Shown here one piece after another: positions 11,472 to 28,000 of a DNA stretch of 35,340 nt; positions within the stretch are counted from its first letter, which is position 1; each line of letters opens with the position of its first letter. Under the pieces are notes generated by a model. That model worked only from the letters and a program-made list of their open reading frames with translations, had not been told where the DNA came from and made no database searches. The stretch lies in the NCBI GenBank assembly GCA_003171215.1, contig PMYN01000022.1:1-35340 (forward strand), written 5' to 3'. Source of the DNA: Gemmatimonadota bacterium. GTDB lineage: Bacteria; Gemmatimonadota; Gemmatimonadetes; Gemmatimonadales; Gemmatimonadaceae. The position numbers and the translations under genes are program-made.

Positions 11472-11695
11472 GCTGGTTCCTCTTTCCTCCGCTCGAGTTC
11501 GTTGGCGATCGCACGGACGAGCAGCGTATATCGATCGCCGCCGCGATCGCGGAGCTGTACGCCGATCTCCGTCAGCGCCGGCGTCGGCACGTCGCGCAAC
11601 GCCTTTCCGCCGTGCGGATGATCCCAGCGCGGGAGATAGACGTCGAGCACGGATCCCGCCGCCGTTTCTTTGTGCCGGCCAGGCTTCGCGGTCAC
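11468..11695 (-). CDS. 75-residue protein made of the DVPTP module
   Basis: The GTG start overlaps the stop of the upstream gene (GTGA). Residues about 20-75 read LPRWDHPHGGKALRDVPTP followed by a helical stretch ending in AIANELERR. This is clearly related to the C-terminal end of the 390-residue protein at 12479-13651 (LPNWRNHPLAGARIRDVPTP, ending AIAEELEAR). The module is thus present both free-standing and as a tail. Two helices plus a Pro-containing loop suggest a protein-protein docking unit; the function is unknown. Confidence 0.65.
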   Translation of the reverse strand: MTAKPGRHKETAAGSVLDVYLPRWDHPHGGKALRDVPTPALTEIGVQLRDRGGDRYTLLVRAIANELERRKEEPA

Positions 11696-12479: not shown

Positions 12480-13651
12480 CAGCCGTCCTCCGCGCCCGCG
12501 GCTGGCGGCTCGCCGGCGGCGCTTTCCGGAGCAGTCCGCCGCGCCTCGAGCTCCTCCGCGATCGCGTCGACGAGCGGCTGCTGGTTGATGCCACCTTTCT
12601 CGCGCAGCGTGATATGCAGCGCTTCGAGCTCCGGCGTCGGCACGTCGCGGATCCGCGCGCCGGCGAGCGGGTGGTTTCTCCAGTTGGGGAGCGTGACGTC
12701 GCGCGCCTCGCTCGGCGCGATCGGCGGCGCGAGTGCTGCGGCGGCCGGCGCGATCATTTCGCCCGCGGGATCCTTGTCCGGTGATTCCGTGAACGCGGCT
12801 GCCGGCGCCGCGGGCTCGATCGCCCCGGAGCCGTACGGATCGTCGTCGGTCCCGGCCCGCAGCAGCGCGGGCCGCGGCTCGAACACCTCAGCGGCGCGGG
12901 CGGTCGCGCGTCCCTGCGCGATGATGTCGCGAAGGAGCAGCGCCTGGTCGCGCATTTCGTCCTCGCGGAACTTGAGCGCGGGAATCGTCGACGCGATGAG
13001 CCGCATGCAGCGCCGGCAGGCGCGCGTCTCGACGGTCTCGACCGGCGTCTCGTCGCCGACGGGATCCGCCGTGACTTCCTTCCAGCCCTTGAACTGGCCG
13101 TTCTGGAAATCCTTCACCTTCTTTTTCCGGCCCTTCACGATCCACTTCGCGCCGGCGAACTCGTGCGGCACGCTCTTGAGCTTCACGCGGAAGACGCACG
13201 CCGCCGTCGCCTCGTCGGGAATCGCGAAGGCGATCCGCTCATCCTCGCGCCGACGCAGCTCGAGCCGCGATTTCTCGTCGCCGGCGTCGGAGCGCGTCTT
13301 CAGGCGCGGATCCGCGACGACGTGATCCGCGCGCACGTATTCGACGAGCTCGGCGCCGACCATCTCGCTGAGCCGCCGCAGGAAATACTTTGCGTTGCGA
13401 TAGATGTTGTCGCCGAGGACGTCGACCTCGGTCACGTCGATCGCGTTGGCCTGCAGGTAGAAACTGATGGCCTCGCGCGAGTCGGGCGTGAGACCCTTGC
13501 CCCAGCTCAGCGCGGCGATCGACGCGGCCACCTGGTGCTGCTGCTTCCGCAGCTCGAGCGCGGCGCGCACCTTGGGCGGGAACTCGCCGCGGCGTGGTGC
13601 CTCGCGGAGCTTCTGCGCGATCTCGCGCTTCGTGAGGGCAGTGGTGGTCAT
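12479..13651 (-). CDS. Possible phage single-strand annealing (RecT-like) protein with a C-terminal DVPTP module
   Basis: The 390-residue protein has a core (about 50-230) with SREAISFYLQANAIDVTEVDVLG, then NIYRNAKYFLRRLSEM, and DPVGDETPVETVETRACRRCMR. An early helical region, then G-x-x-Y-x-N-A-K-Y, then a late T-x-E-x-R-A-x-R-R stretch, resembles RecT/Bet-type annealing proteins, but I rate this as a suggestion. Residues about 255-330 are Ala/Pro-rich linker. The last 60 residues are the DVPTP module shared with the 75-residue protein. GAGG precedes the ATG, which also overlaps the stop of an 11-codon ORF. Confidence 0.5.
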   Translation of the reverse strand: MTTTALTKREIAQKLREAPRRGEFPPKVRAALELRKQQHQVAASIAALSWGKGLTPDSREAISFYLQANAIDVTEVDVLGDNIYRNAKYFLRRLSEMVGAELVEYVRADHVVADPRLKTRSDAGDEKSRLELRRREDERIAFAIPDEATAACVFRVKLKSVPHEFAGAKWIVKGRKKKVKDFQNGQFKGWKEVTADPVGDETPVETVETRACRRCMRLIASTIPALKFREDEMRDQALLLRDIIAQGRATARAAEVFEPRPALLRAGTDDDPYGSGAIEPAAPAAAFTESPDKDPAGEMIAPAAAALAPPIAPSEARDVTLPNWRNHPLAGARIRDVPTPELEALHITLREKGGINQQPLVDAIAEELEARRTAPESAAGEPPAAGAEDG

Positions 13652-13683
13652 GGTCTCAGCCTCGGAAAAGTGATAGCATTCAT
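13648..13683 (-). CDS. 11-residue leader ORF before the 390-residue gene
   Basis: The ORF encodes MNAITFPRLRP. A near-perfect ribosome site (GGTGAGGTG) lies five bases before its ATG, stronger than that of most genes here, and its TGA overlaps the ATG of the next gene (ATGA). It looks like a translational entry point for the 390-residue gene, or a short leader peptide. Confidence 0.45.
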   Translation of the reverse strand: MNAITFPRLRP

Positions 13684-13740
13684 CGTCTCACCTCACCCGC
13701 GTCCGGTGCTTGCCGCGCCGGCGCGGGGTTTTTCTTTTTA

Positions 13741-15570
13741 CTAGAAGTGCGTCCCCCACGTCGCGGTGCCGACACCGGGCGGCGTCGAGCCGCCGCCGGA
13801 GGTATCCGTCCCGCCGGGCGCCGACGGCGGCGGCAGCGTCGGCGCGGTATCCCCGCCCGCCGGGAAGGTCGAATGCGTCGCGGCGAAGACGTCCTCGACG
13901 CCGTTGAAGGTCAGCTCGCCGTTGTCCAGGCTGCCGCGGTTCGCGTTCAGCAGCCGCACGACGAGCCCCGCGATCCCGAAGGCCGGCCAGTCCACGACGA
14001 CGACGTCGCCGGTCGCCAGCGCGTAGCCCTGGCGATTCATCTTCCACGAGAGCTGCGGGAGCGGGACGGAGGTCGCGCGACGCGTGCGCGCGCAGCAGAG
14101 CGCCGCGATGTCCGGATCCGTGACGTAGGGCAGGTCCATCGTCTGACTCCGGATTTGCTTGGTCGCTTGGAAGTTCGCGAGATCCTGATCGGTCACGACG
14201 TCGGGCGCGAACCCGCGGTATTGCGCCGTGTTCTCGAAATGCTGGTACGTGATCCGGATCTCGTTGAACGTCTTCGTCCACGTGCCCGGCGCATAGCGCA
14301 TCGCCGTGCTGTTCGACGGATTCACATGCGGCAGCGTCGACACGTCGTAATCGCCGCGGATCAGTTTCAAGGTGACTTTCTGCGTCACGGGGCTCGTCGC
14401 CAGGACCGCGCCGACGTGCGACAGAATCTTCGTGATCGTCTGTTCCGCCGGCGCCGCATCGCCCACGTGCACCGAGAGCCCGAACCCGGTCTTGGTCGCG
14501 GTGATCGGTTCGGCGAGGAGCGCCGCAGCGCACGCCGCGAAGGATGGAATGTCGATCGTCGCGGGATCGCGCCCCAAGCCGTAACCCGGATGCGTGAGGA
14601 GTGCATAGAGGATCTCCGGCACGCTCGCGTCGTAGCGGATCGTCGCATCGGCGGCGCTCTGCCCAAGCGGCGAGAGCGTGCCGGTCAAGGCGCCTTCCCA
14701 CCACGCCGTGCGGCGCGCGATCACGGTCATCGGTTGCGGCACGCCGCTGCCGGCCGCAATGTAGAAAGGCGTTCCGATGCCGATGCCGCCCGCGCCGGTG
14801 TTCCCCATCCGGATATAGGAGAACCCCGGCCACGCGGAGCAGTTCGCGCCATACGCGACGGGCGAGGCGAGCACCGGATCGATCGGCTGTCCATCCGTGC
14901 CCCAGTACAGGCGGAGCTGGCCTTTGTTCTCGCTGCCGTCGCTGGCGGGATCCCGGCCGATGCCGCCCTGCGCGGCGTCGCCGCCGAACATGGCGTCGGC
15001 CTTCCCCGCGTTCCGCGCGTTCTGGTTGCCGTTGATCGTGATATCGAGCGGGCTGCCGGCATTCACCTGCGCGCCGGCGAGCACGTAATCGAGCGCCGAC
15101 CCGTAAGTGACGCTGTCGCCGATCACATACGCCTGCGCGACATCCCACGCGCCCCACCACGTCGACGGCGTGCCGGTGTCGAGCGGCGTCCAGTAGGTCG
15201 CGTTCGGCGGCGCGTGGCCGGTATGGCCGAGCACGCAGATATAGCTGATGCCGCCGACGGGTTTGTTCCGGCACGATTTGTTGCCGAAGCGGATGTCAAT
15301 GATCTCGTTGATGATTCCCCAGCCGAGCACGAGGTGCGCGCTCATCAGGTAGAACCATTGGAGATGCTTCACCGCGTTCGTGTTGCCCCACCAGACGGTG
15401 TTCGGTGCGACCTCGGCCGTGCCGAACCAGACGGGGACCGGCGGCCCGGCGTCCACTGTGGGCGCCTTGAACTCGCCGCGCTGGGGCTTCTTCGCGAGCG
15501 CGTTCGTCAGCACGGAGGCCAACGCACTCAATACGAACGGAGCAAGTAGGTAGAGCCCAAACATGAGCAT
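13741..15570 (-). CDS. Phage tail hub / tail tip protein (Phage-tail_3, GTA/lambda J-like)
   Basis: The 609-residue protein starts MLMFGLYLLAPFVLSALASV, a hydrophobic N-terminal helix, and has a GGAG ribosome site. Family-like features in order: VPVWFGTAEVAPNTVWWGN, YLMSAHLVLGWGIINEIIDIRFG, LRLYWGTDGQPIDP, then WPGFSYIRM and GTPFYIAAGSG...MTVIARR, then PEILYALLTHPGYGLG and IDIPSFAACAAALLAEP. The order matches hub proteins of siphophage and gene-transfer-agent tails, which hold the tail tip and touch the host surface. The C-terminus is Pro/Gly/Ser rich and ends in TATWGTHF. No other tail gene was found, which makes it odd here. Confidence 0.8.
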   Translation of the reverse strand: MLMFGLYLLAPFVLSALASVLTNALAKKPQRGEFKAPTVDAGPPVPVWFGTAEVAPNTVWWGNTNAVKHLQWFYLMSAHLVLGWGIINEIIDIRFGNKSCRNKPVGGISYICVLGHTGHAPPNATYWTPLDTGTPSTWWGAWDVAQAYVIGDSVTYGSALDYVLAGAQVNAGSPLDITINGNQNARNAGKADAMFGGDAAQGGIGRDPASDGSENKGQLRLYWGTDGQPIDPVLASPVAYGANCSAWPGFSYIRMGNTGAGGIGIGTPFYIAAGSGVPQPMTVIARRTAWWEGALTGTLSPLGQSAADATIRYDASVPEILYALLTHPGYGLGRDPATIDIPSFAACAAALLAEPITATKTGFGLSVHVGDAAPAEQTITKILSHVGAVLATSPVTQKVTLKLIRGDYDVSTLPHVNPSNSTAMRYAPGTWTKTFNEIRITYQHFENTAQYRGFAPDVVTDQDLANFQATKQIRSQTMDLPYVTDPDIAALCCARTRRATSVPLPQLSWKMNRQGYALATGDVVVVDWPAFGIAGLVVRLLNANRGSLDNGELTFNGVEDVFAATHSTFPAGGDTAPTLPPPSAPGGTDTSGGGSTPPGVGTATWGTHF

Positions 15571-15584
15571 CAGGTCAGCTCCGC

Positions 15585-15890
15585 TCAGGTATTGATCACG
15601 GGAATGAGCGCGAAGCCGCCGAAGCGCGCGATATTCGCGTGCGCGGTGCAGCCGACGGGGGTGTGATCGCACTCGGCGCCACCGCCGGCCGCGGGATCCG
15701 CGCCGCAGAGCTCCGAGTAGAGCACGAGCGGGCAGGTGCTCGTGCACGTCCGGCGCGGCGGCAGAGCGTCATGGTCACCGCCGATCGCGGCGAGGTCGAA
15801 GTGCACCCCGCCGCACGTGGCAAGCTGGGCAAGCTCGAGGAGCTCGTCAGGAGTCGGCGGATCCGCGCGCGCGCGTCGCACGTGGATCAC
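15585..15890 (-). CDS. Cys-rich small protein between cement and tail hub genes
   Basis: The 101-residue product begins at a GTG that overlaps the stop of the cement-like gene (GTGA). The N-terminal third is helical (PTPDELLELAQLATCGG); the rest has seven Cys, including RTCTSTCPLV, SELCGAD, ECDHTPVGC, which suggests disulfides or a metal site. No signal peptide is present. Its place just before the tail hub gene suggests a small tail-assembly or tip-associated protein, but this is inference. Confidence 0.6.
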   Translation of the reverse strand: MIHVRRARADPPTPDELLELAQLATCGGVHFDLAAIGGDHDALPPRRTCTSTCPLVLYSELCGADPAAGGGAECDHTPVGCTAHANIARFGGFALIPVINT

Positions 15891-16357
15891 TTCGCGGCGC
15901 GCGCGAGCGCCGGCGGCGCCACGAGCTGGCCGATCTGGACGAGCACCTCGATGCCCGCGCCGGCGACGCCATCCTCGAGCGCGAACCCGACATACCGATC
16001 GCCCGCGACCGCGCGCACGCCGCGGCCCTGCGCGTCGCTCGTGATAAAGTCGCCGTTCACGACGGCGCCGCCGAGCAGCACGGAGGCGAGACCCGCATGG
16101 ATCACCTCCACGCGCTTCCTCGGGCCCGGCAGCGGTTCGAACGTGTCGGGGCCGCCGTCGACGGGGACAGCGCGCATCCGTTCCGGCGGGAGCTTCGCAG
16201 TGATGCCAATCAGCGCATCGGCAGCCGACGCCGCCCGCGTCACTGTGGACACGATCTGATCGCCGACGTCGGCCTTCGTCTTTGCGCCGAACTTCATGAT
16301 CGTGAAACTTTCGACGGGTCCGCTCGCGACGTACACATTTCCGAGGTCGACGTTCAT
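15887..16357 (-). CDS. Capsid cement/decoration-like protein (DUF2190-type)
   Basis: The 156-residue protein starts MNVDLGNVYVASGPVESFTI. The C-terminal part GGAVVNGDFITSDAQGRGVR followed by VAGDRYVGFALEDGVAGAGI and EVLVQIG follows the pattern of DUF2190/decoration proteins (a strand-rich barrel with G-x-F-V-x-x-D and I/V-G-x-A-L-E-D). Such proteins stick to the outside of capsids. A second part (IGITAKLPPERMRAVPVDGG) is not typical. It follows the 316-residue gene by 57 bases. If the element has no major capsid, the protein would act on a helper capsid. Confidence 0.6.
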   Translation of the reverse strand: MNVDLGNVYVASGPVESFTIMKFGAKTKADVGDQIVSTVTRAASAADALIGITAKLPPERMRAVPVDGGPDTFEPLPGPRKRVEVIHAGLASVLLGGAVVNGDFITSDAQGRGVRAVAGDRYVGFALEDGVAGAGIEVLVQIGQLVAPPALARAAK

Positions 16358-16414
16358 TTCTTTCTCGAGTTGAGGTAAGCGCTCGCCGGAGCGCGGTGGG
16401 GCATTACTGCAGGA

Positions 16415-17365
16415 CTACTTCGCCTCGAGCGCCGCGACGGCCTCAGCTGCGCTGAGTCGCTCCCCGCGCGCGGCGGCCGCGTCCACACTCGCGCGCGCTT
16501 CCCGCGCGACGTCTTTGGCATGCGCCAAATCGTACGCTGCGAGCTTGGCGTCGACGGCGTCGATCGTGCGCGCGGTGGCCAGCACCAGCGCGCGGCGCTC
16601 GGCGCCGCGCACTCGATCGAGCGCGACCGCGTAGGTGCATTCGACGTCCGCGGCAAGACGCGTCGCCAACGACCGCTGTTCGGGAAATTGCGCGCCGAGT
16701 GCGAGAATCTGCGTTCGATCGGCGGCGTGCGCCTCGCGCTTGGCGGTGACGCGTGTGATGGCGGTGTCGTTCTGCATCGTGATGCCGATCTCGCGGGCGC
16801 GCGCGACTTCGCGCCTGGCTTCCAACGCCGGCGTCTCGGCGTCGTCGTAATCGAGGCCGAACACGTGGCGCGCGCCTTCCACCGGCGTCACCGTGCGGTC
16901 CAGAAGTGCCAACTCCGACGCGATGAACCCCCGAATCTCTGCGGCGTGGCGAACCTCCGGATTCGCCACCGGAGGACCGGCGGCGATCGCCCGCGCCTCT
17001 GCCACCAGGGCCGCGCGCTCGGCGCGAGCGGCGGATTTCGCCGCCTCTTCGATCTCCCGTTGGCGGATCGCGGCGGAGTCGGCCGCATGCGCCGCCTCTC
17101 TCCGAACTCGCGCCACCGTCTCCGCGACCGCGGGATCCGTCATCCGCGCATCGACGACGGCATCGACACTCGGATGGGGAACCGGCGCCGCGCGCGCTTT
17201 CCGCGGCGCCGGGGCGGCCGCCGCCCACTCACGCCGTTGCTTCGCGATTCGCCCCTTCATGGCGAGATCCGCGGCCGGGGATAGCAGCTCCAGGCCGCAT
17301 TGCCTCCGGGCCAAATTGTCCAGGAGGACCTCGACCGTGACGGCGCCGCTCATGGATTGCCTCAT
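16415..17365 (-). CDS. Ala-rich helical protein of unknown function
   Basis: The 316-residue product starts MRQSMSGAVTVEVLLDNLAR with a GGAG ribosome site. About a quarter of the residues are Ala; long charged helices (AADSAAIRQREIEEAAKSAA, and EARREVARAREIGITMQNDT) predict coiled coils. The size and make-up would fit a scaffolding or head-associated protein, but no motif supports this and I leave the function open. It overlaps the upstream 50-codon gene by ATGA. Confidence 0.55.
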   Translation of the reverse strand: MRQSMSGAVTVEVLLDNLARRQCGLELLSPAADLAMKGRIAKQRREWAAAAPAPRKARAAPVPHPSVDAVVDARMTDPAVAETVARVRREAAHAADSAAIRQREIEEAAKSAARAERAALVAEARAIAAGPPVANPEVRHAAEIRGFIASELALLDRTVTPVEGARHVFGLDYDDAETPALEARREVARAREIGITMQNDTAITRVTAKREAHAADRTQILALGAQFPEQRSLATRLAADVECTYAVALDRVRGAERRALVLATARTIDAVDAKLAAYDLAHAKDVAREARASVDAAAARGERLSAAEAVAALEAK

Positions 17366-17514
17366 TGTGATCTCCGGTTGCTGAGGGTGCGGCGGTTCAG
17401 GCCGCCAGAAGGTCTACGGTCGCGGGGAAGCCCGCCCGACGCGTCGGACACGCAATCGATGCAGAGTGCATCAAAAAACGTCGCGCCGGACGGACGTTCC
17501 CAGGCGAAGTTCAT
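17362..17514 (-). CDS. 50-residue protein linking the AlpA-like gene and the Ala-rich gene
   Basis: The ORF starts MNFAWERPSGATFFDALCID and both of its ends form ATGA overlaps with the flanking genes, which makes chance unlikely. It is too short for most gene callers. It contains two Cys five residues apart in pattern CIDC and a basic tail (NRRTLSNRRSQ). No family is recognised. Confidence 0.6.
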   Translation of the reverse strand: MNFAWERPSGATFFDALCIDCVSDASGGLPRDRRPSGGLNRRTLSNRRSQ

Positions 17515-17711
17515 GCGGTCGCCACCGCGTCGGACGTGCTGAGCCGCTTCTGGCTCTCGACGAACTTTTTTACGTCCTCGATGTCGTATCGGACGAGCCT
17601 GCCAACGCGCAAAAAGCGAGGGCCGGCCCCGCGTAGCCGAAGGACAGCGAGTTGCTGCTTGCTGATGCCAAGTGTTCGCGCAGTGGTCTCGGGATCCTGC
17701 AGTTCACTCAT
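17511..17711 (-). CDS. AlpA/excisionase-like HTH protein
   Basis: The 66-residue product starts MSELQDPETTARTLGISKQQ and continues LAVLRLRGAGPRFLRVGRLV then RYDIEDVKKFVESQ. This is the classical MerR-like HTH_17 fold of excisionases and AlpA-type activators: helix, turn, recognition helix, wing (G-P-x-F-x-R-V-G-R-x-V-R-Y), final helix. It is the first gene of the minus-strand late-type block and divergent from the 249-residue regulator, so it is placed like the AlpA/Stl-type switch genes of satellites. It could activate the operon, or serve as excisionase. Confidence 0.75.
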   Translation of the reverse strand: MSELQDPETTARTLGISKQQLAVLRLRGAGPRFLRVGRLVRYDIEDVKKFVESQKRLSTSDAVATA

Positions 17712-17778
17712 GGGAATCGCCTCGCATGTTGCGCCGCCCCATGCGGCCACGGCGGAACGATTGCATGCCGCATCGTTC

Positions 17779-17814
17779 TTGAACATTCCGGTAGGCCGAC
17801 GTATATTCGGCCTT
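17779..17814 (+). promoter_or_regulatory. Strong promoter with overlapping operator; predicted leaderless start
   Basis: TTGAAC (17779-17784) and TATATT (17802-17807) are 17 bases apart, the best sigma70-type promoter seen in the window. A perfect inverted repeat AGGCCGA-N7-TCGGCCT (17793-17813) covers the -10. The expected transcription start is within a base or two of the ATG at 17815, leaving no room for a ribosome site. Blocking by the regulator itself is likely. Confidence 0.65.
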
Positions 17815-18564
17815 ATGGCGACGAAAAAACGACCGAAGCGCAAGCAGGCCGCGGCCACTGGCGAGCGTATCAGGGAGGTAATGCTCGAACGGCGGCAGGG
17901 CGTCACGGCACTTGCGACCGAGCTCGGGAAGGATTGCCATTCCCAGGTGTCGGCTTGGCTCAACGGGGATTCAGTCCCCGGCGGCATCTATCTCCGCGCG
18001 ATCGCGGAGGGAGTGCCGGCGGATGGTAAGCCGGTTGGCGGCCGCCGGGCTGTCACCTCCGACTGGATGCTCTGCATCGACGGGGCGCCGAAGTACCCGG
18101 AAGAACGGCTAATCCTTACCGACTTTCTGCGCTTCGCGACCGAAGAGATGATCCGGCAAGGCAGCGAGGGAATGGACCTGCCGCCGCGGATCCGTGACGC
18201 GCTCGCCGGGCATATCACGCGCGACGTCGTAAGGGCAGAGCTGCGGCGCCTCGCGCGCGACCTCATGCAGCGGGCGTTCCGGATCGATGAGAGACAGCGG
18301 GCTTCCGAGATCGTCCAAGCGCGGCTGCGGAACGACCGCACGCTCGACGCGCGCACGATAGAGGCGATCGCTCTGCTCGGATCCCACGCGGGCACCATGG
18401 AGGCGATCGCTATACCCGGATCCGAGGATTACTTCGCCGCCCGCGAACACGGCGACGAAGTCGGCCGCGCGCTTCGTGCCGGGTTCGCAGCCGGGCGCCG
18501 ACGTGGGAAGGCGAAGACGGCACCGCGTGGCCGGCCGGGAAGGAAGGCGCGCAAGCCGAAATAG
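17815..18564 (+). CDS. Putative phage-type repressor/regulator with N-terminal HTH
   Basis: The 249-residue protein starts MATKKRPKRKQAAATGERIR. Residues about 14-60 (IREVMLERRQGVTALATELG, SQVSAWLNGDSVPGG) fit a helix-turn-helix of the Cro/CI group, where SQVSAWLNG is the recognition helix. The middle and C-terminal parts are helical and Arg-rich; no peptidase motif of LexA-type repressors is visible. The ATG at 17815 is chosen over a longer upstream frame because the promoter and operator sit directly before it. It is divergent from the AlpA-like gene and probably sets the resting state of the element. Its last codons recur downstream of the cargo cassette. Confidence 0.65.
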   Translation: MATKKRPKRKQAAATGERIREVMLERRQGVTALATELGKDCHSQVSAWLNGDSVPGGIYLRAIAEGVPADGKPVGGRRAVTSDWMLCIDGAPKYPEERLILTDFLRFATEEMIRQGSEGMDLPPRIRDALAGHITRDVVRAELRRLARDLMQRAFRIDERQRASEIVQARLRNDRTLDARTIEAIALLGSHAGTMEAIAIPGSEDYFAAREHGDEVGRALRAGFAAGRRRGKAKTAPRGRPGRKARKPK

Positions 18565-18567
18565 CGA
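18530..18567 (+). repeat. 3' end of the regulator gene, copy 1 of a 38-base direct repeat
   Basis: GCCGGCCGGG, eight variable bases, then CGCGCAAGCCGAAATAGCGA. The same arrangement with the same spacing is found at 20080-20117 (33 of 38 bases match). It includes the stop codon of the regulator. The two copies flank the three-gene cargo cassette. The 140-base gap after this copy, up to 18705, shows no gene. Confidence 0.8.
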
Positions 18568-18704
18568 CGGATCCGGGCGTGGGGCGGTAGTGGCCTTGTT
18601 TCGGTAACGGTCCCGCCGGGGGAAGGGCTGAGTGACTGGCGCGATTTGGCTGTGTCGGGGGTACCTCGCTAGCGCCTCAATGCCGGGATGTCTAGCTTCT
18701 TGCT

Positions 18705-19055
18705 ATGCCACCTCATGCCCAAGTGCCGGTCAAGGCGAAGATTGCGGTACCGAAGAGGGACCTACCGCCGCCGGAAGGGGCGAACTGGTTCCACTTCTCG
18801 CAAGCCAATACCGATGTGCAGGTCATGATCGGCTACATCGATCCGAGCCAAGCTGGCGACTATGTGACCGCCATCCGTGCGGGGAAAAAGCCGGAGCACG
18901 ATCTCGTGCCGATGGTCACTCGACGGGTACTACTCTCGCTGAGTGGATTCCTGTCACTACGTCAGCAAGTCGAGCAGATGTTCGGCAAGATGCGGGAAGC
19001 CGGAGTGCTCGACGTTGAAGAAGCGGGATCGGAATCAGGAAAAAACGATGTCTGA
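18705..19055 (+). CDS. DUF3467-like small protein, cassette gene 1
   Basis: The 116-residue product starts MPPHAQVPVKAKIAVPKRDL. The pattern NWFHFSQANTDVQVMIGYID, then VPMVTRRVLLSLSGFLSLRQ and EQMFGKMREAG recalls DUF3467: a strand pair with an (A)N-x-V segment, a central R-x-x-L-S, and a last helix in front of G. The function of that family is not known. No clear ribosome site precedes the ATG. Its stop overlaps the next gene by eight bases (ATGTCTGA), so all three cassette genes are made together. Confidence 0.6.
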   Translation: MPPHAQVPVKAKIAVPKRDLPPPEGANWFHFSQANTDVQVMIGYIDPSQAGDYVTAIRAGKKPEHDLVPMVTRRVLLSLSGFLSLRQQVEQMFGKMREAGVLDVEEAGSESGKNDV

Positions 19056-19551
19056 TAATCCCAAAGCACCGGCTGTCGCATCGGTTCAGCTGCCGGCTCC
19101 CGCGGTCGCCGATTGGACCTATGGAGACAAGCTGCTTGGCGTCTCGCCGGTGATACTGCTCAACAAGACGCCGGTTGGGAGCGCTTGGGTGGTGAACATC
19201 GACGACGCGCGCGTTGCGGCGGGATCGTCCGACTACACAATCAATCCGACTTCCATAGCGCCGAAAGTACTGGATGCGTTCATCGATCTGCACGGTCTGG
19301 ATGCGCTTATCAATCCGGCTTTGGGCGAAGCGACAGCTGTGTTTGGTCCTTCGAACTATGTCAGCAAGAAGAGGCTTGTCACCGATTCGGAACTGCACGA
19401 GGACTTTGTTCGGCTTGAGATTCGGGTCAAAGGTCTTTCGCGCGAGCAGTTCCGAACGGCGCGGAAGGATTTCGATGCGAAGGTGGCCGCACTTCCCGCT
19501 GCGTTCGGACTGGAGCGCGTTCTGATCATCGTATCGCGCAGTGCCGACTAG
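19048..19551 (+). CDS. Protein of unknown function, cassette gene 2
   Basis: The 167-residue product starts MSDNPKAPAVASVQLPAPAV. I do not recognise it. A first part (YGDKLLGVSPVILLNKTPVG) and a central part (LDAFIDLHGLDALINPALGE) are followed by a mixed strand/helix end (FVRLEIRVKGLSREQFRTAR, then LERVLIIVSRSAD). The nucleotidyltransferase signature that normally accompanies HEPN proteins (GS-x-D-x-D) is absent. GTG of gene 3 overlaps its last eleven bases. Composition is clearly lower in GC than the flanking phage genes. Confidence 0.6.
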   Translation: MSDNPKAPAVASVQLPAPAVADWTYGDKLLGVSPVILLNKTPVGSAWVVNIDDARVAAGSSDYTINPTSIAPKVLDAFIDLHGLDALINPALGEATAVFGPSNYVSKKRLVTDSELHEDFVRLEIRVKGLSREQFRTARKDFDAKVAALPAAFGLERVLIIVSRSAD

Positions 19552-19993
19552 GGATGTTGAGTCGGCCCGCGTGTTCGCGCTCGCCGACGAATTGCATGAG
19601 GATTCCGCTGCAGGGATTGATCCGGCAGCGTGGGCGGGATGCGATGTTGAGCGCTGGCGCTCAGCGATAAGCCGAGGCTACTACGCGCTGTTCCTGCATC
19701 TTAAGATTGCGCTTTTGGACAGCGGATTCTTGAAGTTCCCCTTCCCGGAGAGCGGCGCGCACTCGGCTGTTTCGAGGGCGGTAAGGGCCGCACTCAAGCC
19801 GTACCATCCAGTCGCGCAAAAGCTCGTGAGTCTGAAGCTCGAGCGCGAGTTCGCTGACTATTCGATCGCGCTGGACGTGGACAAGTCATACGCGCAGGAT
19901 CGACTCGACGAGGCGTATGACGCGATGGGAGCGATTGACTCCCTCAAGCCCGTGCAGCTTCAAGCGATTGCTGATAAGCTCGAAGGTCGTTAG
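19541..19993 (+). CDS. HEPN-like protein, cassette gene 3
   Basis: The 150-residue helical protein has VERWRSAISRGYYALFLHLK (about 36-55) and LEREFADYSIALD (about 102-114), then LDEAYDAMGAIDSL. S-R-x-Y-Y-A-x-F in helix 2 and R-x-x-A-D-Y in helix 3/4 are usual in the HEPN fold. HEPN proteins are often RNases or nucleotide-modified toxins of toxin-antitoxin and phage-defence systems. The R-x(4-6)-H catalytic motif is not visible, so nuclease activity is uncertain. No MNT-type antitoxin lies next to it; genes 1 and 2 take that place. Start GTG 19541 is set by the overlap with gene 2. Confidence 0.62.
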   Translation: MPTRDVESARVFALADELHEDSAAGIDPAAWAGCDVERWRSAISRGYYALFLHLKIALLDSGFLKFPFPESGAHSAVSRAVRAALKPYHPVAQKLVSLKLEREFADYSIALDVDKSYAQDRLDEAYDAMGAIDSLKPVQLQAIADKLEGR

Positions 19994-20079
19994 CGCTCAC
20001 GGACAGCTAAAGAGGACGCGAATCAGATCGCGTTGCGCGCGGTGCAGGAGTCGATCCGCGACCACGACGAACCCAAGAA

Positions 20080-20117
20080 GCCGGCCGGGGCGCGAGCCGC
20101 GCAAGCCGAAATAGCGA
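20080..20117 (+). repeat. Copy 2 of the regulator 3' end, after the cargo cassette
   Basis: In the matching reading frame this copy ends PRKPK then stop, like ARKPK then stop of the regulator. It runs straight into the terminator hairpin at 20114, which suggests that this was the original gene end and terminator. A second frame through 20000-20117 reads KEDANQIALRAVQESIRD without a normal start and may be another gene remnant. Confidence 0.8.
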
Positions 20118-20145
20118 AGGGCCCGGCGATTGCCGGGTCCTTCGC
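20114..20145 (+). terminator. Strong stem-loop terminator after the cargo cassette
   Basis: GCGAAGGGCCCGGC, loop GATT, then GCCGGGTCCTTCGC make a 14-base-pair stem with one G-U pair, followed by a T/C-rich tract (TTCTCTCTC). It would end the plus-strand cassette transcript before the convergent minus-strand gene. Confidence 0.75.
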
Positions 20146-20175
20146 TTCTCTCTCGCTACTTCTTCTTCGGCGGCA

Positions 20176-20694
20176 TCATTTGATCACGCCGGCGCGGATG
20201 AGTCTCATTGTCTGGTTCGATCGCGCGAATCGCACCTCGCCGGTAGACAGACATATTCCCAGCCGGACCGCGGCGGGAAAGTGCCGCTCCAAGAACCATA
20301 GCGGACGCGACCTTCGGGCGGCTTCCTCACAACTTGCCACCGCCGCCGCGTCGAGGACAAAAACATCACTCTCCGAGTGCTTCAGCAGCGTGGGGTCCGG
20401 GCGCCAGAACGCGGCAATCTGCGGACAGTCCTGGTGGAAGAACAATCCCCATCGCCCGACCGGATATAATGCAGAAAACTCCGTCATCCCCAAGTTGACG
20501 ACTCCGATGCGCACCTTCGAGACCAGGCCGCGACGTAGATCGAACTCCGGAATCGCGCTAACGAGAACACGCGTGCGCCGGTCCCGGAGTCCGAAGTAGA
20601 GTGCGACGATGACGGCGCCGATCGTGCCGACAGCCGTGAACCATTCCGCGACCGTTCCGATCACAGCGGGCCGAAAGAAGAGGCTGTCGGTCAT
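20176..20694 (-). CDS. Single-pass membrane protein of unknown function
   Basis: The 172-residue product has one strong membrane helix near the N-terminus (EWFTAVGTIGAVIVALYFGL) followed by a basic stop-transfer stretch (RDRRTR), so most of it should face the cytosol. The remainder is a mixed fold (VLVSAIPEFDLRRG, VRIGVVNLGMTEFSALYP). Proteins with this exact W-F-T-A-x-G-T-x-G-A-V helix are common and uncharacterised in bacteria and their mobile elements. It is the last gene of the minus-strand block starting at 23088, and could be an exclusion or sensing protein. Confidence 0.65.
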   Translation of the reverse strand: MTDSLFFRPAVIGTVAEWFTAVGTIGAVIVALYFGLRDRRTRVLVSAIPEFDLRRGLVSKVRIGVVNLGMTEFSALYPVGRWGLFFHQDCPQIAAFWRPDPTLLKHSESDVFVLDAAAVASCEEAARRSRPLWFLERHFPAAVRLGICLSTGEVRFARSNQTMRLIRAGVIK

Positions 20695-20772
20695 CTGATG
20701 AGCCGCGCGGTCACTCCGGCCTCACGATCGTTCGCTCCATCTTCATCTCCCACTTCTGCGGCGTCTGGAGGC

Positions 20773-21252
20773 TCATGGAACGACATTCTCCCTCTCGACG
20801 AACCCGCGACAGCCGCGAGGGTTGCCCGTCTCCACGAGTACCTCTCGCCAGTCAAAGCCCGAGTCCAGGATCGTGACGGATTCGCCGCCGTCCGGAAGGC
20901 ATTTGGCGTGAGGAAGGAGGAGCTCGGGGTGGCTGCTTCCAACGCCTGCCACAAGGAGCTTTATCCCCTCGTCGTAGTCCGCCTTCGACCTCCAAACGAT
21001 CAGTTTCCGTTGAGCAAGGTGCGCGAGGCCAGCCGTCGGATGGTCGATGGCTGGAGGTGAGTTCTTCCCGGTGTTCGTTGAGACTATCGCCAGGACGAAA
21101 ACGACAAGGAGTGCGAGGCAGCCGATTCCGGCCCACTTCGCGCATCCGGCCGAGACTTTGCTGGAAACTGGATACGGGACACCGCAGTGAGGGCAGCTCT
21201 GCGCGCTAGCGCTGATTTGTTCTCCGCATTCACGGCAGGGCGCGAGTGCCAC
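20773..21252 (-). CDS. Zinc-ribbon membrane protein
   Basis: The 159-residue product starts with a zinc ribbon, CRECGEQISASAQSCPHCG (Cys-x2-Cys, 10 residues, Cys-x2-Cys), then a membrane helix (WAGIGCLALLVVFVLAIVST) and a soluble C-terminal part facing outward (about 65-159). This layout is frequent in small unknown membrane proteins. The GTG start overlaps the stop of a 26-codon ORF by one base (TAGTG), so it is translated from the same message as the lipoprotein. Confidence 0.65.
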   Translation of the reverse strand: MALAPCRECGEQISASAQSCPHCGVPYPVSSKVSAGCAKWAGIGCLALLVVFVLAIVSTNTGKNSPPAIDHPTAGLAHLAQRKLIVWRSKADYDEGIKLLVAGVGSSHPELLLPHAKCLPDGGESVTILDSGFDWREVLVETGNPRGCRGFVERENVVP

Positions 21253-21332
21253 TATTTTCCGCTCCGGCGCTCCGCGCGTGCCTTCACGGCCGCGTAGATC
21301 GCCCGCTGGCTCGGGAGGTTCTCTCGCCTCAC
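21252..21332 (-). CDS. 26-residue small ORF between lipoprotein and zinc-ribbon genes
   Basis: It begins at a GTG overlapping the lipoprotein stop (GTGA) and ends in a TAG overlapping the next GTG (TAGTG). The peptide contains LPSQRAIYAAVKARAERR, an amphipathic basic helix. Double coupling makes translation likely, but a pure relay role is possible. Confidence 0.4.
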   Translation of the reverse strand: MRRENLPSQRAIYAAVKARAERRSGK

Positions 21333-21769
21333 CGGATTGCCGACATGCCGCGCACGCCGACGAGGACGTCCTGGCCGGTTTTCACGTAGTAGAGAAAGGC
21401 CGTCCGGACATCGAGGGCGTTCGGGTTGCACCCGAGCGGGTTGCCGCAACCCAACTCCATCGCGATGCGATACTGACCCGAGCCCAGCGGCTCTCGCGTC
21501 ACGCTGAAGGCGTAGGTCGGGCTGTACTGTGTCCCGTTGTAGGTCTGCAGCAGGACGTCCGTGGAGGTCTGCAGTTTCCAGGATGAGTGCTTCGCGAGCC
21601 AGAGCTGCGCGCGCTCCCAGTCCTGTTTGCAGGTGGCATCGTCGCACGCGACATTGTCGCCCACGACCAGGCGCGCCGGAGAGACCGCCGTCGTTACCGC
21701 GGCGTTCCCGTTGCATCCGCCGGCGGCGAACACAAGAGCAATGACGGTCCAGCATCGGATCCTTTTCAT
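21329..21769 (-). CDS. Putative exported lipoprotein
   Basis: The 146-residue product starts MKRIRCWTVIALVFAAGGC, a short signal with a lipobox-like AGGC, so Cys19 would carry lipid. The mature part has paired Cys (VACDDATCKQDW and ELGCGNPLGCNP) and strand-rich segments (TYAFSVTREPLGSGQYRIAM). No family is recognised. Element-borne lipoproteins are often surface-exclusion or lysogenic-conversion factors; that is only a possibility here. An upstream in-frame ATG exists, but the signal peptide supports this start. Confidence 0.6.
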   Translation of the reverse strand: MKRIRCWTVIALVFAAGGCNGNAAVTTAVSPARLVVGDNVACDDATCKQDWERAQLWLAKHSSWKLQTSTDVLLQTYNGTQYSPTYAFSVTREPLGSGQYRIAMELGCGNPLGCNPNALDVRTAFLYYVKTGQDVLVGVRGMSAIR

Positions 21770-21804
21770 GGCCTGCCATCCCCGCAGAGTTTGAGGGTTC
21801 ATCC

Positions 21805-22095
21805 TTACGACTCCGAGCCGAGCGTCGCAAGACTGGCTGAATTGTGTCGGACGCGCGCGGGCTGCTCGTACGCACGCTCCCGCTGGTTTCGGCGGTGACA
21901 TCTCGGGCAGTAGATCCAGACCGTGCTGCCGATCGCGACTTGATAGCATTCGGACGCACTCTCGAGATTCCCGTCGCAGCGATCGCACCACATCAGCCGC
22001 CAGCCGTTGCTCAGGATCCGGGTGACGATCGCGACGTCGCGCGCCGCCGCCGCCGCCCGGTGGTGATGCGCGCCCGCACCAACGAGGCCGCTCAC
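21805..22095 (-). CDS. Small zinc-ribbon protein
   Basis: The 96-residue product contains CDRCDGNLESASECYQ and, 15 residues on, YCPRCHRR: two Cys-x2-Cys knuckles of a zinc ribbon. Its GTG start overlaps the stop of the preceding gene (GTGA). The N-terminal 30 residues are Ala/His-rich and probably unstructured. A nucleic-acid binding role is usual for such ribbons but not shown. Confidence 0.55.
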   Translation of the reverse strand: MSGLVGAGAHHHRAAAAARDVAIVTRILSNGWRLMWCDRCDGNLESASECYQVAIGSTVWIYCPRCHRRNQRERAYEQPARVRHNSASLATLGSES

Positions 22096-22337
22096 GTCGA
22101 CGCGCCGGCGCGGAACTCCACGAACTTCCCGCGCGCCACGACGATCTCGTCGCACGCGCCCTCGCTGTCGAAGTAGAACAGCCGCTGGCCGTCGCCGAGG
22201 AGGCCGCTCGCCACGAGCTCGTCGACGACGGCCTCGGCGCCGTTCGTGACCGTCGGGAACCGACTCCAAGGCCCGACGTCGCGGATGGTGACGCGCACGG
22301 CCGAGCGCGACACGAGCTCCCAGCGCGGCGATCTCAC
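22092..22337 (-). CDS. 81-residue protein of unknown function
   Basis: The product starts at a GTG that overlaps the stop of a 12-codon ORF (GTGA). It looks like a compact beta-alpha-beta unit: VRVTIRDVGPWSRFPTVTNG, AEAVVDELVASGLLGDGQRL, FYFDSEGACDEIVVARG. The pairing of a helix VVDELV with strands RLFYFDSEG and EIVVARGKFVEF is regular enough to be a folded domain. No family is recognised. Confidence 0.55.
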   Translation of the reverse strand: MRSPRWELVSRSAVRVTIRDVGPWSRFPTVTNGAEAVVDELVASGLLGDGQRLFYFDSEGACDEIVVARGKFVEFRAGAST

Positions 22338-22372
22338 GCCGGCACCAGCGCGAGCGCGGCGGCCCGTCTCAT
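22334..22372 (-). CDS. 12-residue relay ORF
   Basis: MRRAAALALVPA is encoded between two true genes, with an ATGA overlap at its start and a GTGA overlap at its end. Its only visible role would be to pass ribosomes from the 109-residue gene to the 81-residue gene. Confidence 0.35.
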   Translation of the reverse strand: MRRAAALALVPA

Positions 22373-22698
22373 GCGACGGCCGCTCGCTCGGCACTCTTGA
22401 TGCGTCGCTCGATCTCGGGCCGCAACCGCTCGAGTGCGGAGAGGAACCCCGGAAGATCCGACCCATCGATCGACATCTCTTCCTCTTCGCAGTCTGACGG
22501 CAGGTAGCGCACCGTGAGGGTCGAGCGCTCGAGCCGGCCGCCCGCATCGGCCTTCTCGTTATCGTCCGTGAGCTCTTCGAGCTCGAGCACGATCTGACTC
22601 TTTCTGCGAAATACCGACACCCTCGCGATCGTGGACTCGCCTTCGATCAGGACGGCGGCCGGCGATTCCCTCGAGGGTTCCTTGCGCGCGCGCGTCAT
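22369..22698 (-). CDS. 109-residue protein of unknown function
   Basis: The product starts MTRARKEPSRESPAAVLIEG. It has strand-like parts (ARVSVFRRKSQIVLELEELT, STLTVRYLP), a very acidic turn (DCEEEEMSIDG) and a C-terminal helix (LPGFLSALERLRPEIERRIK). The layout, strands then an acidic patch then a helix with P-x-x-L-x-x-L, is like that of the 129-residue neighbour, so the two may be distant paralogues. The ATG follows the neighbour's TAG directly. Confidence 0.55.
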   Translation of the reverse strand: MTRARKEPSRESPAAVLIEGESTIARVSVFRRKSQIVLELEELTDDNEKADAGGRLERSTLTVRYLPSDCEEEEMSIDGSDLPGFLSALERLRPEIERRIKSAERAAVA

Positions 22699-23088
22699 CT
22701 AGCGGCCTCGCGCGCTGGCGGCAGGGCGATAGCGAGAGCCCTCGATGTGCTCGATGGCCTGGAGGGGACCGGACTGATCCTCGAGTTTCCGCAGCAACTC
22801 GGGAATCCTGTCGACGAGCAATTGCGGCATCGTCAGCGTCTGGAGCCCCTTCGATTCTGTGTTTTTGCCAAGGTTGCTCGAGAAGTTGATCGTGATGCTC
22901 CGATCCTCGTCGTTCGCCTCCGCCGCCGAGAGCTCGATCGAGAGGTGGCACTCTTCCTCTTCCGTGCTGAAGTCTTCGCTGACGTAAATCGAAGCCACGG
23001 CGCCGAACATGAGCGTGTTGTTCGGAGCTGCAATCCGAGTCCTTGCGTTCCTGCTGGTCGATTTCTTCGGTTTCTGCTGACGCTTCAT
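22699..23088 (-). CDS. 129-residue protein of unknown function, first gene of the switch operon
   Basis: The product starts MKRQQKPKKSTSRNARTRIA, a basic N-terminus, followed by strands (GAVASIYVSEDFSTEEEECH, LSIELSAAEANDEDRSITIN) and a C-terminal helix (LLVDRIPELLRKLED). GGAG lies six bases before the ATG, one of the clearest ribosome sites in the element. It is divergent from the XRE repressor across a two-operator region, so this operon is probably silent until the repressor is lost. No family is recognised. Confidence 0.6.
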   Translation of the reverse strand: MKRQQKPKKSTSRNARTRIAAPNNTLMFGAVASIYVSEDFSTEEEECHLSIELSAAEANDEDRSITINFSSNLGKNTESKGLQTLTMPQLLVDRIPELLRKLEDQSGPLQAIEHIEGSRYRPAASARGR

Positions 23089-23138
23089 GGCGTGCTCCGG
23101 TTGAGTGTGCGGGCGTGGCGTGCGCCACGTCCTACAGA

Positions 23139-23187
23139 ACGCTATACGGCTTCCCGCATTGCGTCAAGATACGGGAAACCGTATTGT
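23139..23187. promoter_or_regulatory. Divergent promoters with two matching operators
   Basis: Two sites of the form ATACGG-N4-CCGYAT lie at 23144-23159 (second half CCGCAT) and 23169-23184 (perfect), 25 bases centre to centre. The plus promoter is TTGCGT (23159-23164), 17 bases, TATTGT (23182-23187); site 2 fills its spacer and reaches the -10. The minus promoter is TTGACG (23162-23167) with TAGCGT (23139-23144), also 17 bases; site 1 covers its spacer. The two -35 boxes overlap. Confidence 0.7.
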
Positions 23188-23193
23188 TCGCCC

Positions 23194-23421
23194 ATGTCGC
23201 CGCTTGCCATCCGACTGAAAGAGATCCGCCTAGCCGCGGGAATGAGCCAGGGCGAGCTCGCCGCCAAGGCCAAGACTCGCCAAGGCACCATCTCTCTTCT
23301 CGAGAGCGGAAAGACGCGGCGCGTTGACCTCGATCTCCTCGAGCGGATCGCCAAAGCGCTCGGCGCGGAACCCGGCGAGCTGCTCGTGCGCGAAACAAAG
23401 AAGCGCGGACCGCGCGGCTAG
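23194..23421 (+). CDS. XRE-family (Cro/CI-type) repressor, probably leaderless
   Basis: The 75-residue protein is one HTH_3 domain: IRLKEIRLAAGMSQGELAAK, then TRQGTISLLESGKTRRVDLD, then LLERIAKALGAEPGELL. The recognition helix is TRQGTISLLESG. There is no extra dimerisation domain, so it acts as a small dimer on palindromes such as the two sites in front of it. The expected transcription start coincides with the ATG and there is no ribosome site, as for lambda cI from PRM. Its stop shares the four bases CTAG with the stop of the convergent gene. Confidence 0.9.
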   Translation: MSPLAIRLKEIRLAAGMSQGELAAKAKTRQGTISLLESGKTRRVDLDLLERIAKALGAEPGELLVRETKKRGPRG

Positions 23422-24053
23422 CGCCGCTCCGTCGGAGACGCGCCGCCGGTTAGTCGCGCGCCAGGCAGGGGAAGCGTAGCCCACGCGCCGGCGTTCGCGG
23501 TGAGGAAGCGCCGGAACTGCTCGAGTTGCGATGCGAAGCGAATCCGCTCGCGCCACAACCCCACCGGCAAGTTCGTGCCGTTGCGTACGAGATCGAGGAG
23601 CGTCCCCGTCCGCGGCACGCCGAGCACCTCCGCGAGCAGCGGCCACGGCAGCCTTGGATCTTCGACCATCGCGGCGAGCCGGGTCACGATCATTTCCCGG
23701 CGCAGCTGTCGGATCGAGGCGCCGCCGGCGCGGTAAATCCGCGTGGAGAGGGCGTTCATCGGCATCCGGACCGCGGCGGCGATCGCGACGACCGTCGAGC
23801 CATCGCTCCGCGCGATCGCGCGCGTGAGTAAACGCGCGCCGATGGAGCGCATCAGCGGTGCGTGAGGCAGCAGCTCGTCGATCGCCGCGGCCAGATGGTC
23901 ACGCGCGAGGCCATCGGCCGCCCTTGCGTCATGCAGGGCACGGCGCGGCCGCACGTAGCGCGCGCGCACAACGCCGCCGGCGCGCGGCTCGATCGAGCGA
24001 CTGTCCCTCAACTGTCCCCCCGCACATGGACACCCATACGTGCTTTCGCGCAT
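23418..24053 (-). CDS. HTH protein with AraC-like C-terminal region
   Basis: The product of up to 211 residues ends the element before attR. Residues about 85-175 read as two helix-turn-helix units: VVAIAAAVRMPMNALSTRIY and RAGGASIRQLRREMIVTRLA, then LPWPLLAEVLGVPRTGTLLD. Helix spacing and the R-x-x-L-x-x-x-R connecting helix are like AraC-type domains. The first 30 or so residues are doubtful and a later GTG start is possible. The gene lies between the switch region and attR; its start is about 90 bases from the core att site. It may regulate excision or cargo genes. Confidence 0.55.
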   Translation of the reverse strand: MRESTYGCPCAGGQLRDSRSIEPRAGGVVRARYVRPRRALHDARAADGLARDHLAAAIDELLPHAPLMRSIGARLLTRAIARSDGSTVVAIAAAVRMPMNALSTRIYRAGGASIRQLRREMIVTRLAAMVEDPRLPWPLLAEVLGVPRTGTLLDLVRNGTNLPVGLWRERIRFASQLEQFRRFLTANAGAWATLPLPGARLTGGASPTERR

Positions 24054-24139
24054 TATGCTCCCTCGCGCATGCGCGCTAACTCGTTGTAATTCAACGTTTG
24101 GTGTTTCGTGGTGCCGGATGCGCGGAGACGGCCGACGAG

Positions 24140-24191
24140 CTTAAAATCCCTTGGGGGCAACCCCATCCGAGTTCGAGTCTCGGTCCCGGCA
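24140..24191 (+). repeat. attR: displaced original 3' half of tRNA-Leu
   Basis: It matches the tRNA-Leu 3' half at 6452-6501. The variable-arm stem here has one more G-C pair (GGGGG with CCCC against GGGG with CCC), a paired change that keeps the stem, and the T loop has TTCGAGT in place of TTCGAAT. The upstream 27 bases only loosely resemble a tRNA 5' half and lack the anticodon-stem partner, so this copy is not a working tRNA. Confidence 0.9.
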
Positions 24192-25006: not shown

Positions 25007-28000
25007 TTGACCGATTCGCAGCACGTCGCTCACTCAGCTTTCCGCCAACGCGGCCACGTTCTGGTGCGCGGGCTGGGTACCGCTGAGATTGTCCTCGGGG
25101 ACATGTCGCTGCGGCCGGATTCCGGCGTGTCGTTCCCGCTCGTGCTCCTGCTGGCGCTCAAGGCCGGTCGCTGGGTCACTCGATCCGAAATATTGGAGGC
25201 GGTGTGGCCGAAGATCCCGCCGCAGCGCGCGCGCGCCGCGTTGCGACAAGCACTCTACCGACTGCGCAACGCGGGACTGGTGCTCGAAGATCGCTCGGAT
25301 GCCGTCCGCCTCGATCGGGCGCTCGTCGAGAGTGACCTCGCGCGCGTGAATGCCCCCGGCTGGTCCGCAACTGCGACGGATGACGAAGTCGAGCGGGCCC
25401 GGCATGTCTTGCCCGAGTTCAGAGCGCCTTCGGAGCGGCTGGCATCGCTGTGCGACGACCTCAGGATGCATCTCGAGCGCCATTACGAGGAAGCGCTGTT
25501 GCTCCGACTCGCCGTCGCCCGTGAGCAAGCACGATGGGTGGACGTCGAGCGCTGGGCTGGGCACTGTCTCGAAGTCGATCCGATGAACGAGGACGCCACG
25601 TTCGCGCGGGCAGAGGCCGCCACGCTGCGCGGTGCGCCGACCGTCGCCATGGCCGAGCTCGACCATTATCTCACGGAACTCGGTCCCGAGGCGCACAGCG
25701 TGGAACGACGGGTGCAGGAGCTGCGCAAGCGGCTCTCGCTACCTCGTCCCAATCTCGAGGCGAAACTCCCGCTGACACCGTTGCCGTTTGTGGGCCGGCA
25801 GGTCGTGGTGCGTGAAATGATGCGGCAGCTTCAGGCCGCCGAGGCGGGCGCGGCGCAGGCCTGCTGCGTGATTGGCCCGTCGGGCATCGGCAAGTCGCGA
25901 CTTCTCGAACACGTGCGGGCGATCGCGTCGCGTGACGGCTGGCACGTCGTCGCGACCGACGCGCGGCCGACGTCCGCCGAGCAACCGCTCGCCATGGTGA
26001 TCGACACGCTGCGCGTGCTGCTGGAAGCCCCGGGCGCCATGGGGACGATGCCGGAGGCGCTCCAACTGCTCCGCATGGCCTGCATGCTCACTCGCGAATC
26101 CGGCGTCGTGACGACGGACGACGTGCTCGGCCGACAGCACGCCTTGTTCCGCGCGTGGCTCGATCTCCTGGACGCCATCCTGTCGGAGACGCGACTGCTG
26201 ATCGTGCTGGACGACGTCCAGTGGACGGACGAGCGCTCGTTGATGTGGTTCGCCCAGACGCTCGATGCACGCCCCGGTGCCACACTGGCGGTGTGTTGCG
26301 CCGCCCGGCGACTACCTCAGCCGTCCGCGGGAGAGACGACACCGTGGCTCAAGGCTCGGCTCTATCGGCTGGGGCGACTCGTCGATGACGACGTGGCCAT
26401 GCTCGTCAGCGCCTCGGGCGCGGTGTCGCCAGACGAGGAGCCGAGAGCGGTCGAAGGGCTCTCGCGAGCGAGCGGGGGGCACCCGCTCTTCCTGCTCCAT
26501 CTGCTGCAGCATCTCCGTCTGGGTGGCACCTTGAGTCGTCTGCCCGCAGACGTGACTGCGCTCGTGGATGGACGCCTGGCGGCGCTCGTGCTCACGGGGC
26601 GGCGGGTGCTGGAGGCCTGCGCGCTGCTGGGCCGGCACGCCTCGATCTCACGGGTGGCACGAACGCTGGAGATTACGGCGGCGGAGTTGGTCGCACCGCT
26701 CGCCACGCTCAGCGATCTGCTCATCCTCGCGGAAACTCGCGATGCGCGGCTCGTGGTTCACGACATCTGGTTGGACGCCGCACGGCGCGCCATGCCTGAT
26801 GCGTCGCGTCGCTCGATGGCCCTGTCTGCCGCACGCCAGCTCGAGGCCGATGCCAGTGCGATCGACAGTCCCGCCCTGCTCGGGGACGCATGCGCCATGT
26901 ATCAGGAGGCCGGTGAACCGACGTTGGCGTTCGAGCCAACGCTGCGCTGCGCTCGGTACTTCGCCGAGAATGGGTTGCCCGCCGAGGCCGGACGCGCGTA
27001 CAGGCAGGCCGTGGAATCCGCGGGGAGCCCCACCCAGCGTCGCGAAGCCTGGATGGGACTGCTGGCCTTGCAGCGGGCGACGCGCGACTGGCCTGAACTG
27101 CTACGAACGATCGCGGCAATTCAACACGACGGTGGGCCGAGATTGCATGCCGAGGCACAAGCGACGCTCGCCTTGCACGAACTCGAGGCGCGCTCGTCCG
27201 TAGACAATCCGGAGACAGGGCTCCCACGCCTCCAAGCAATGGTCTTCGATGAGCGTCTGTCCCTCCCGATTCGCCAGCGCGCGCTGCTCGCGGCCATCAC
27301 GACAGCCAACTATGTCTATGATCGCCCTGTCCTCGAGGCGTGCTACGCCGCGCGTGCCACGCTCCTGCTCGACGACGGGGAACAGCGCGGATTGCAGCTG
27401 CGCGTGATTTATGGGACGGCGACTGGCGCGCTCGGGCTCGCCGATGGTGCCGCGCAGGGCCTGCTCGAGCATGCCGCTGACGCGCGCGACGTGGGCACGA
27501 TGTGCATGGCGCTCCGCTATGCGGGAGTGACGCGACGGCTACGCGGGGATCGTGCCGGTGCCGTCGCGCATTATCGGGAGGCGGAGGCGCTCGCGCGGCA
27601 GCACATGATGCCGTTCGCGGAGGCGGTGGCTGGCGAGGCGTGCGCTGTGATCCAGGCGGAGCGCGGTGAGCTGGACGACGCGGAGGCGACGCTCCTGGGA
27701 ATGGAACGCACCTGGGACGATCGGCTCGGGCGGATCATGCACGGCCAGGTATCGTGGGCTTGGGCGTTCGTGATGGCGGCACAGGGGCGTTACCGCGAGG
27801 CGCGAGAACGCCTCGCCTCCATCGACGACCCGCGAACGCTCGATTCGCGCACCTATACGCGATTGGACTTCGAGGCACTGGCGCTGCGCCTGGCCTTGCA
27901 GCAGAACCGACCGGACGTTGCCCGGAAACACTTGGACTTTGTGCAGGCCGAACGCGCGTTCCTCAACCTGTATAGTCCGCCCGTCGACCGAGTGGCGAGT

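Follow-up and report, generated by a model that had tools for sequence, protein, structure and literature searches.

A HEPN-T gene and an overlapping gene of an apparently unnamed partner family form a candidate toxin-and-restrainer module in a prophage-like element of Gemmatimonadota

The stretch of DNA analyzed here (the window; 35,340 nucleotides of contig PMYN01000022.1 from a Gemmatimonadota bacterium) contains an integrated element of 17.7 kb (about 6445–24191) that is bounded by repeats of the 3' end of a tRNA-Leu gene. The left attachment-site-like repeat (6445–6502, forward strand) is the 3' part of the tRNA-Leu gene itself (6419–6502), and the right one (24133–24191, forward strand) is a second copy of this 3' end, identified by repeat search and alignment; in the repeat search of the window, the two are spaced by about 17,690 nucleotides. 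A tyrosine integrase gene (6532–7692, reverse strand; PF00589, E = 3e-13; phrog_1, E = 2e-42) lies beside the tRNA-Leu gene, and since the element also carries DnaB/AAA_25 replication, terminase-small-subunit-like, tail protein and scaffold-like genes, we consider it prophage-like. Few structural genes beyond the tail and scaffold-like genes were seen, so that the element is probably a satellite or a decayed prophage. Just outside the right repeat, positions 25103–28150 encode a large AAA_16/STAND-like protein whose N-terminal domain is that of a transcriptional regulator.

Within this element lie three forward-strand open reading frames that overlap by 8 and 11 nucleotides, as claimed in the original prediction: gene 1 (18705–19055, ATG start, 116 amino acids); gene 2 (19048–19551, ATG start, 167 amino acids), predicted to encode a HEPN partner and putative antitoxin or regulator; and gene 3 (19541–19993, GTG start, 150 amino acids), which encodes a HEPN-T (UPF0332-like) protein and predicted RNase. 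The trio is foreign in composition. The GC content of genes 1, 2 and 3 is 57.8, 58.1 and 59.8%, respectively, against 66.8% for the whole window, which bears out the lower GC content that had been asserted for them, and their GC3 is 0.66–0.70, as compared with 0.79–0.89 in the regulator, helicase, tail, Ala-rich and integrase genes of the element. Searches of the same genome and of 179 family genomes yielded no second copy of gene 1 or gene 3.

The regulator next to which this foreign three-gene cargo had been placed is real: a phrog_4 repressor-like gene (17881–18564, forward strand; E = 3e-5), whose open frame extends from 17536, lies upstream of the trio. A 47-bp direct repeat, detected by repeat search and alignment, occurs once on each side of the trio, the two copies being 83% identical. 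The left copy (18530–18576, forward strand) takes in the 3' end of the regulator gene together with its stop codon, the frame ending in RPGRKARKPK-stop, and one frame of the right copy (20080–20126, forward strand) reads RPGREPRKPK-stop. At the right copy there is also an intrinsic-terminator-like hairpin (about 20113–20147, forward strand; -32.3 kcal/mol, z = -6.45), as stable as which none of 200 shuffled sequences proved to be, in agreement with the claim that the cassette has its own terminator; the hairpin is absent from the output of a generic terminator scan, and the left copy of the repeat lacks one of this kind. Given the flanking repeat, and the presence of the hairpin at the right copy only, the trio would have been added as cargo between the regulator gene and its terminator. 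Phage cargo genes are often inserted at such a position, and the site beside a prophage regulator is a usual place for phage-exclusion genes. Between the stop codon of gene 3 and the terminator (19994–20112), one frame (...TAKEDANQIALRAVQESIRDHDEPKK...) resembles the end of another gene, and the regulator-like 3' end lies beside it in a second frame, possibly a recombination scar.

On its own, gene 3 has no direct match to the Pfam HEPN models, falling below PF05168, or to PADLOC, and its only direct match in PHROGs is phrog_5176, a family of unknown function. However, an early profile of gene 3 relatives (A1) already matched solved HEPN proteins, and a later profile (A4; 38 sequences) matched 9xbd (E = 6e-14), 2hsb (AF0298; E = 2.5e-8) and 36ht, the HEPN protein of retron-Kva2 (E = 5.7e-7) in the PDB. 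Moreover, 33 of the 38 sequences individually match PF05168 at E ≤ 0.1, and 29 match the PADLOC model HEPN_IX. Structure prediction, which had been proposed as a test of the HEPN-like assignment, returned a HEPN fold: the AlphaFold2 model of gene 3 (pLDDT 91.9) superimposes on 2hsb with Z = 13.3 and rmsd 2.9 over 116 aligned residues (VIA-align), other HEPN proteins scoring lower, and 2hsb is likewise the top Foldseek match (E = 2e-3). Profile and predicted fold thus agree in identifying the gene 3 product as a HEPN protein, a helical bundle of the HEPN-T type.

As to relatives in mobile elements, genes 1 and 3 gave no tblastn match in phages or plasmids, nor did either gene alone find anything in viral contigs. 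Profile A1 detected related HEPN genes on three viral contigs (L089, 3162–4297; L090, 3172–4336; L091, 1635–2814). The gene upstream of each of these encodes a longer protein (about 250 amino acids), with no significant match to the partner profile described below.

The canonical R-x4-6-H motif at the end of helix 3 is absent from gene 3, which has R102-x3-D106-Y107 there; the original prediction had remarked on this and concluded that the mode of action would be unusual. The observation is correct but the conclusion is not, because this is known variation within HEPN-T: in HEPN-T proteins, as in AbiV, the motif histidine is replaced (by aspartate in HEPN-T) and a conserved upstream histidine compensates for it (PMC3710099), so that the missing motif does not exclude gene 3 from this type. 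A similar site is required in the retron-Kva2 (type IX) HEPN protein, where H64 and R122 come together at the dimer interface, close to Y40–42, and where the H64A/R122A protein serves as the catalytically dead control (PMC13405049). Seven residues of gene 3 (R40, Y47, Y48, H74, R102, D106 and Y107) are invariant in the 38 sequences; the conservation of R40, Y47 and Y48, like that of A42 and R45, follows in part from the pattern used in the scan, but H74, R102, D106 and Y107 lie outside this pattern, and their conservation is independent of it. In the main A4 alignment, H64 of the retron-Kva2 protein falls in the H74 column, and its R122-x3-D-Y falls in the R102-x3-D-Y column by way of a second, sub-threshold segment. 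We therefore propose an active site composed of H74 and R102 together with Y47/Y48 and D106/Y107, and regard gene 3 as a probable active RNase belonging to the known HEPN-T type. The loss of the canonical motif would also suit a non-catalytic HEPN protein that only binds RNA or the gene 2 product, for example as a prophage regulator, and MtlR-type HEPN proteins are believed to regulate without being catalytic (PMC3710099). However, the alternative H/R site is invariant in 38 sequences from many phyla and matches residues that the retron-Kva2 protein requires (PMC13405049), which makes this reading very unlikely.

The likeness to type IX retrons, the HEPN proteins of which are used against phages, lies in this non-canonical site of the H64/R122 kind. 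No reverse transcriptase motif of the Y-x-D-D type occurs in window ORFs of at least 150 amino acids, and the fold predicted for gene 2 differs from that of a winged-helix protein. The AbiV protein of Lactococcus (9bj6, titled as the RNase of a two-component antiphage system) likewise shares with the present genes an alternative-histidine HEPN protein (PMC3710099) and a two-component organization, although its structural match to gene 3 is weak (Z = 6.4–6.7).

Upstream of the HEPN relatives, we repeatedly found a protein that ends just before the HEPN start, or overlaps it, and that has a D-P-E turn between two strands, followed by a helix and a further strand. When a profile of 19 such partners that excluded gene 2 was run against the 495 six-frame ORFs of the window, gene 2 came first (E = 0.003; next, E = 2.4), and it did so again with a profile of 33 partners, likewise without gene 2 (E = 2.7e-4, 16.1 bits); shuffling gene 2 gave 9.8 bits at best (1731 of 2000 shuffles reported). 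D113 and E115 of gene 2 fall in conserved columns of the family, at the D-P/S-E turn. The C-terminal domain of gene 2 is thus assigned, by a distant match of 16 bits, to the HEPN-partner family defined here. When each of the 34 partner rows was left out in turn, together with all rows more than 35% identical to it, 31 ranked first in their own locus, and 26 had E < 0.01; since the rows were chosen by position, this shows the common descent of the upstream genes and is not an unbiased rate of detection. No family in Pfam or NCBIfam describes the partner, which appears to be unnamed in these libraries and in the open-access papers searched.

Of 42 genome loci collected with the HEPN profile, 26 have the partner directly upstream, 10 have a minimal nucleotidyltransferase (MNT) gene and six have neither, a tally that was made by hand and includes near-copies. 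The partner-linked loci come from Planctomycetota, Cyanobacteriota (with Melainabacteria), Chloroflexota, Gemmatimonadota, Thermotogota, Deinococcota, Pseudomonadota, Lentisphaerota, Latescibacterota, Bacillota, Poribacteria and Abditibacteriota. In one genome (L014, 5341–7117; G382:C58), two partner–HEPN pairs stand in tandem, and its other contigs carry more copies. In a tree of the HEPN proteins, many branches of which are long, the MNT-linked proteins form one side of a branch with support of 100/98. In the same tree, gene 3 clusters with a Gemmatimonadota HEPN protein from a partner-linked locus (96/81).

The AlphaFold2 model of gene 2 has a domain of alpha-alpha-beta-beta-alpha-beta order (residues about 70–167, pLDDT mostly 91–97), preceded by a region of low confidence (residues 18–66). 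A search for a solved relative of this domain returned only common alpha/beta arrangements (Z of 6.6 or less), and no residue of the domain is invariant in the family. With a match this distant, and no clear relative among solved folds, it is from gene order alone that we infer binding of the gene 2 product to the HEPN protein. A tblastn search with gene 2 found no match in phages; a weak match to a Pseudomonas plasmid (E = 0.09) was judged to be due to chance, because the annotated genes there lie on the other strand.

HEPN genes are well known from HEPN/MNT pairs (HepT/MntA; PADLOC PDC-M05), which resemble genes 2 and 3 in being two-gene operons with the partner first and the HEPN gene second, and in having a conserved tyrosine. 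Here, however, the partner is not a nucleotidyltransferase: in line with the original prediction, no MNT gene adjoins gene 3, and the nucleotidyltransferase motif G-S...D-x-D is absent from gene 2 and from the 34 partner rows. The HEPN proteins of the MNT loci that were retrieved also form a separate group. PDC-M05A was rejected as the partner, being a nucleotidyltransferase whose matches in this genome lie on other contigs. Two such PDC-M05A-type genes occur there (L140, L143; G000:C11, G000:C117), and MNT-type loci may therefore coexist with the pair. One could envisage that gene 2 enzymatically modifies Y107 and so silences the HEPN protein, much as MntA AMPylates HepT, given that the tyrosine of R-x3-D-Y is invariant and that the solved related HEPN proteins 9xbd and 9xbc differ by Y/F at this position, as if the residue had been tested. 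We regard this as highly improbable in view of the missing nucleotidyltransferase motif and of a partner domain without an invariant residue; that no nucleotidyltransferase is among the fold matches listed is weak evidence in the same direction.

The trio is conserved in part. The gene 2 family does stand directly upstream of HEPN genes, but gene 1 was found nowhere else, so that only genes 2 and 3 form a conserved unit. Gene 1 has no match above noise in Pfam, NCBIfam, PADLOC or PHROGs, and no relative was found among the 179 genomes of the family, besides gene 1 itself, or in phages, plasmids or viral contigs. Its description as DUF3467-like finds no support: DUF3467 (PF11950) proteins do occur in the phylum of the host, but gene 1 has no match to the Pfam model at E ≤ 1, and a phylum-specific profile gave it a score of 1.6 bits, which shuffled versions of gene 1 reach as well.

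In related operons the place of the first gene is often empty or is occupied by a TIGR04255 protein, which precedes the partner in six genome loci (E = 8e-13 to 2e-47). Such operons, found in Thermus brockianus (plasmid pTB1), Thermosipho, Paraburkholderia, Anaerolineae and others, share the three-gene order and the partner and HEPN families with the trio, but differ from it in their first gene. On pTB1, TIGR04255 is followed by a hypothetical gene and then by an unannotated HEPN ORF; in this region (L135, 1585–6729), which is rich in toxin and defence genes, the three adjoin a VapBC pair and cas6. Rather unlikely, but worth stating, is a new kind of tripartite HEPN immune system, the first gene of which is interchangeable (gene 1 in this element, TIGR04255 in other phyla) and would sense the invader, the conserved partner passing the signal on to a HEPN-T RNase that would shut down translation. 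In the phylum of the host, where none of 30 loci has the pair within 1.5 kb, the idea that TIGR04255 generally accompanies HEPN was rejected. Since TIGR04255 is otherwise unlinked to the pair in this phylum, and several pairs lack a third gene, a functional trio is a possibility rather than an established fact; no paper covering both TIGR04255 and HEPN was found among the open-access papers searched.

Taken together, the pair looks like a widespread toxin-and-restrainer module, and the proposal of a candidate defence or toxin module is upheld as such. We consider it moderately likely that genes 2 and 3 are prophage cargo encoding a HEPN RNase toxin that is restrained by gene 2 and that probably serves anti-phage defence. 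Lying between the regulator gene and the terminator, the module would probably be co-transcribed with the regulator during lysogeny. The product of gene 2, being made first from the overlapping frame, would hold the HEPN protein off by binding it through the conserved C-terminal domain, the antitoxin-first order being the usual one (PMC3710099). This brake might be released by the variable N-terminal part of gene 2, or by gene 1, upon sensing that a foreign phage has arrived or that the element has been lost. Gene 3 would then act as a dimeric RNase, with tRNA or another structured RNA as the most likely target; the retron-Kva2 HEPN protein causes tRNA loss (PMC13405049). No demonstrated activity for any member of this exact pair was found in the open-access literature searched.

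The likeliest use of this machine would be abortive defence against other phages, with maintenance of the element as an alternative use. That the same toxin–antitoxin chemistry serves maintenance (addiction) only, with no part in phage defence, seems unlikely. It would fit the two-gene, antitoxin-first order, the location inside a small integrated element and the presence of related pairs on plasmids of Gloeothece and Thermus; many other relatives, however, lie in what appear to be chromosomal contigs, and the cassette adjoins a prophage regulator, where phage-exclusion genes are usually sited. Moreover, the closest relative studied mechanistically, the retron-Kva2 HEPN protein, is an anti-phage effector (PMC13405049).

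HEPN toxin modules are of a known kind, and it is the partner that appears to lack a name: a second partner family, in about a dozen phyla, stands in the place of MNT beside HEPN-T genes. Naming this family would annotate many operons that now read 'hypothetical protein – HEPN', and the family would allow a clear-cut test of the way in which a HEPN RNase can be restrained without AMPylation. The partner–HEPN pairs, furthermore, add candidates for phage defence.
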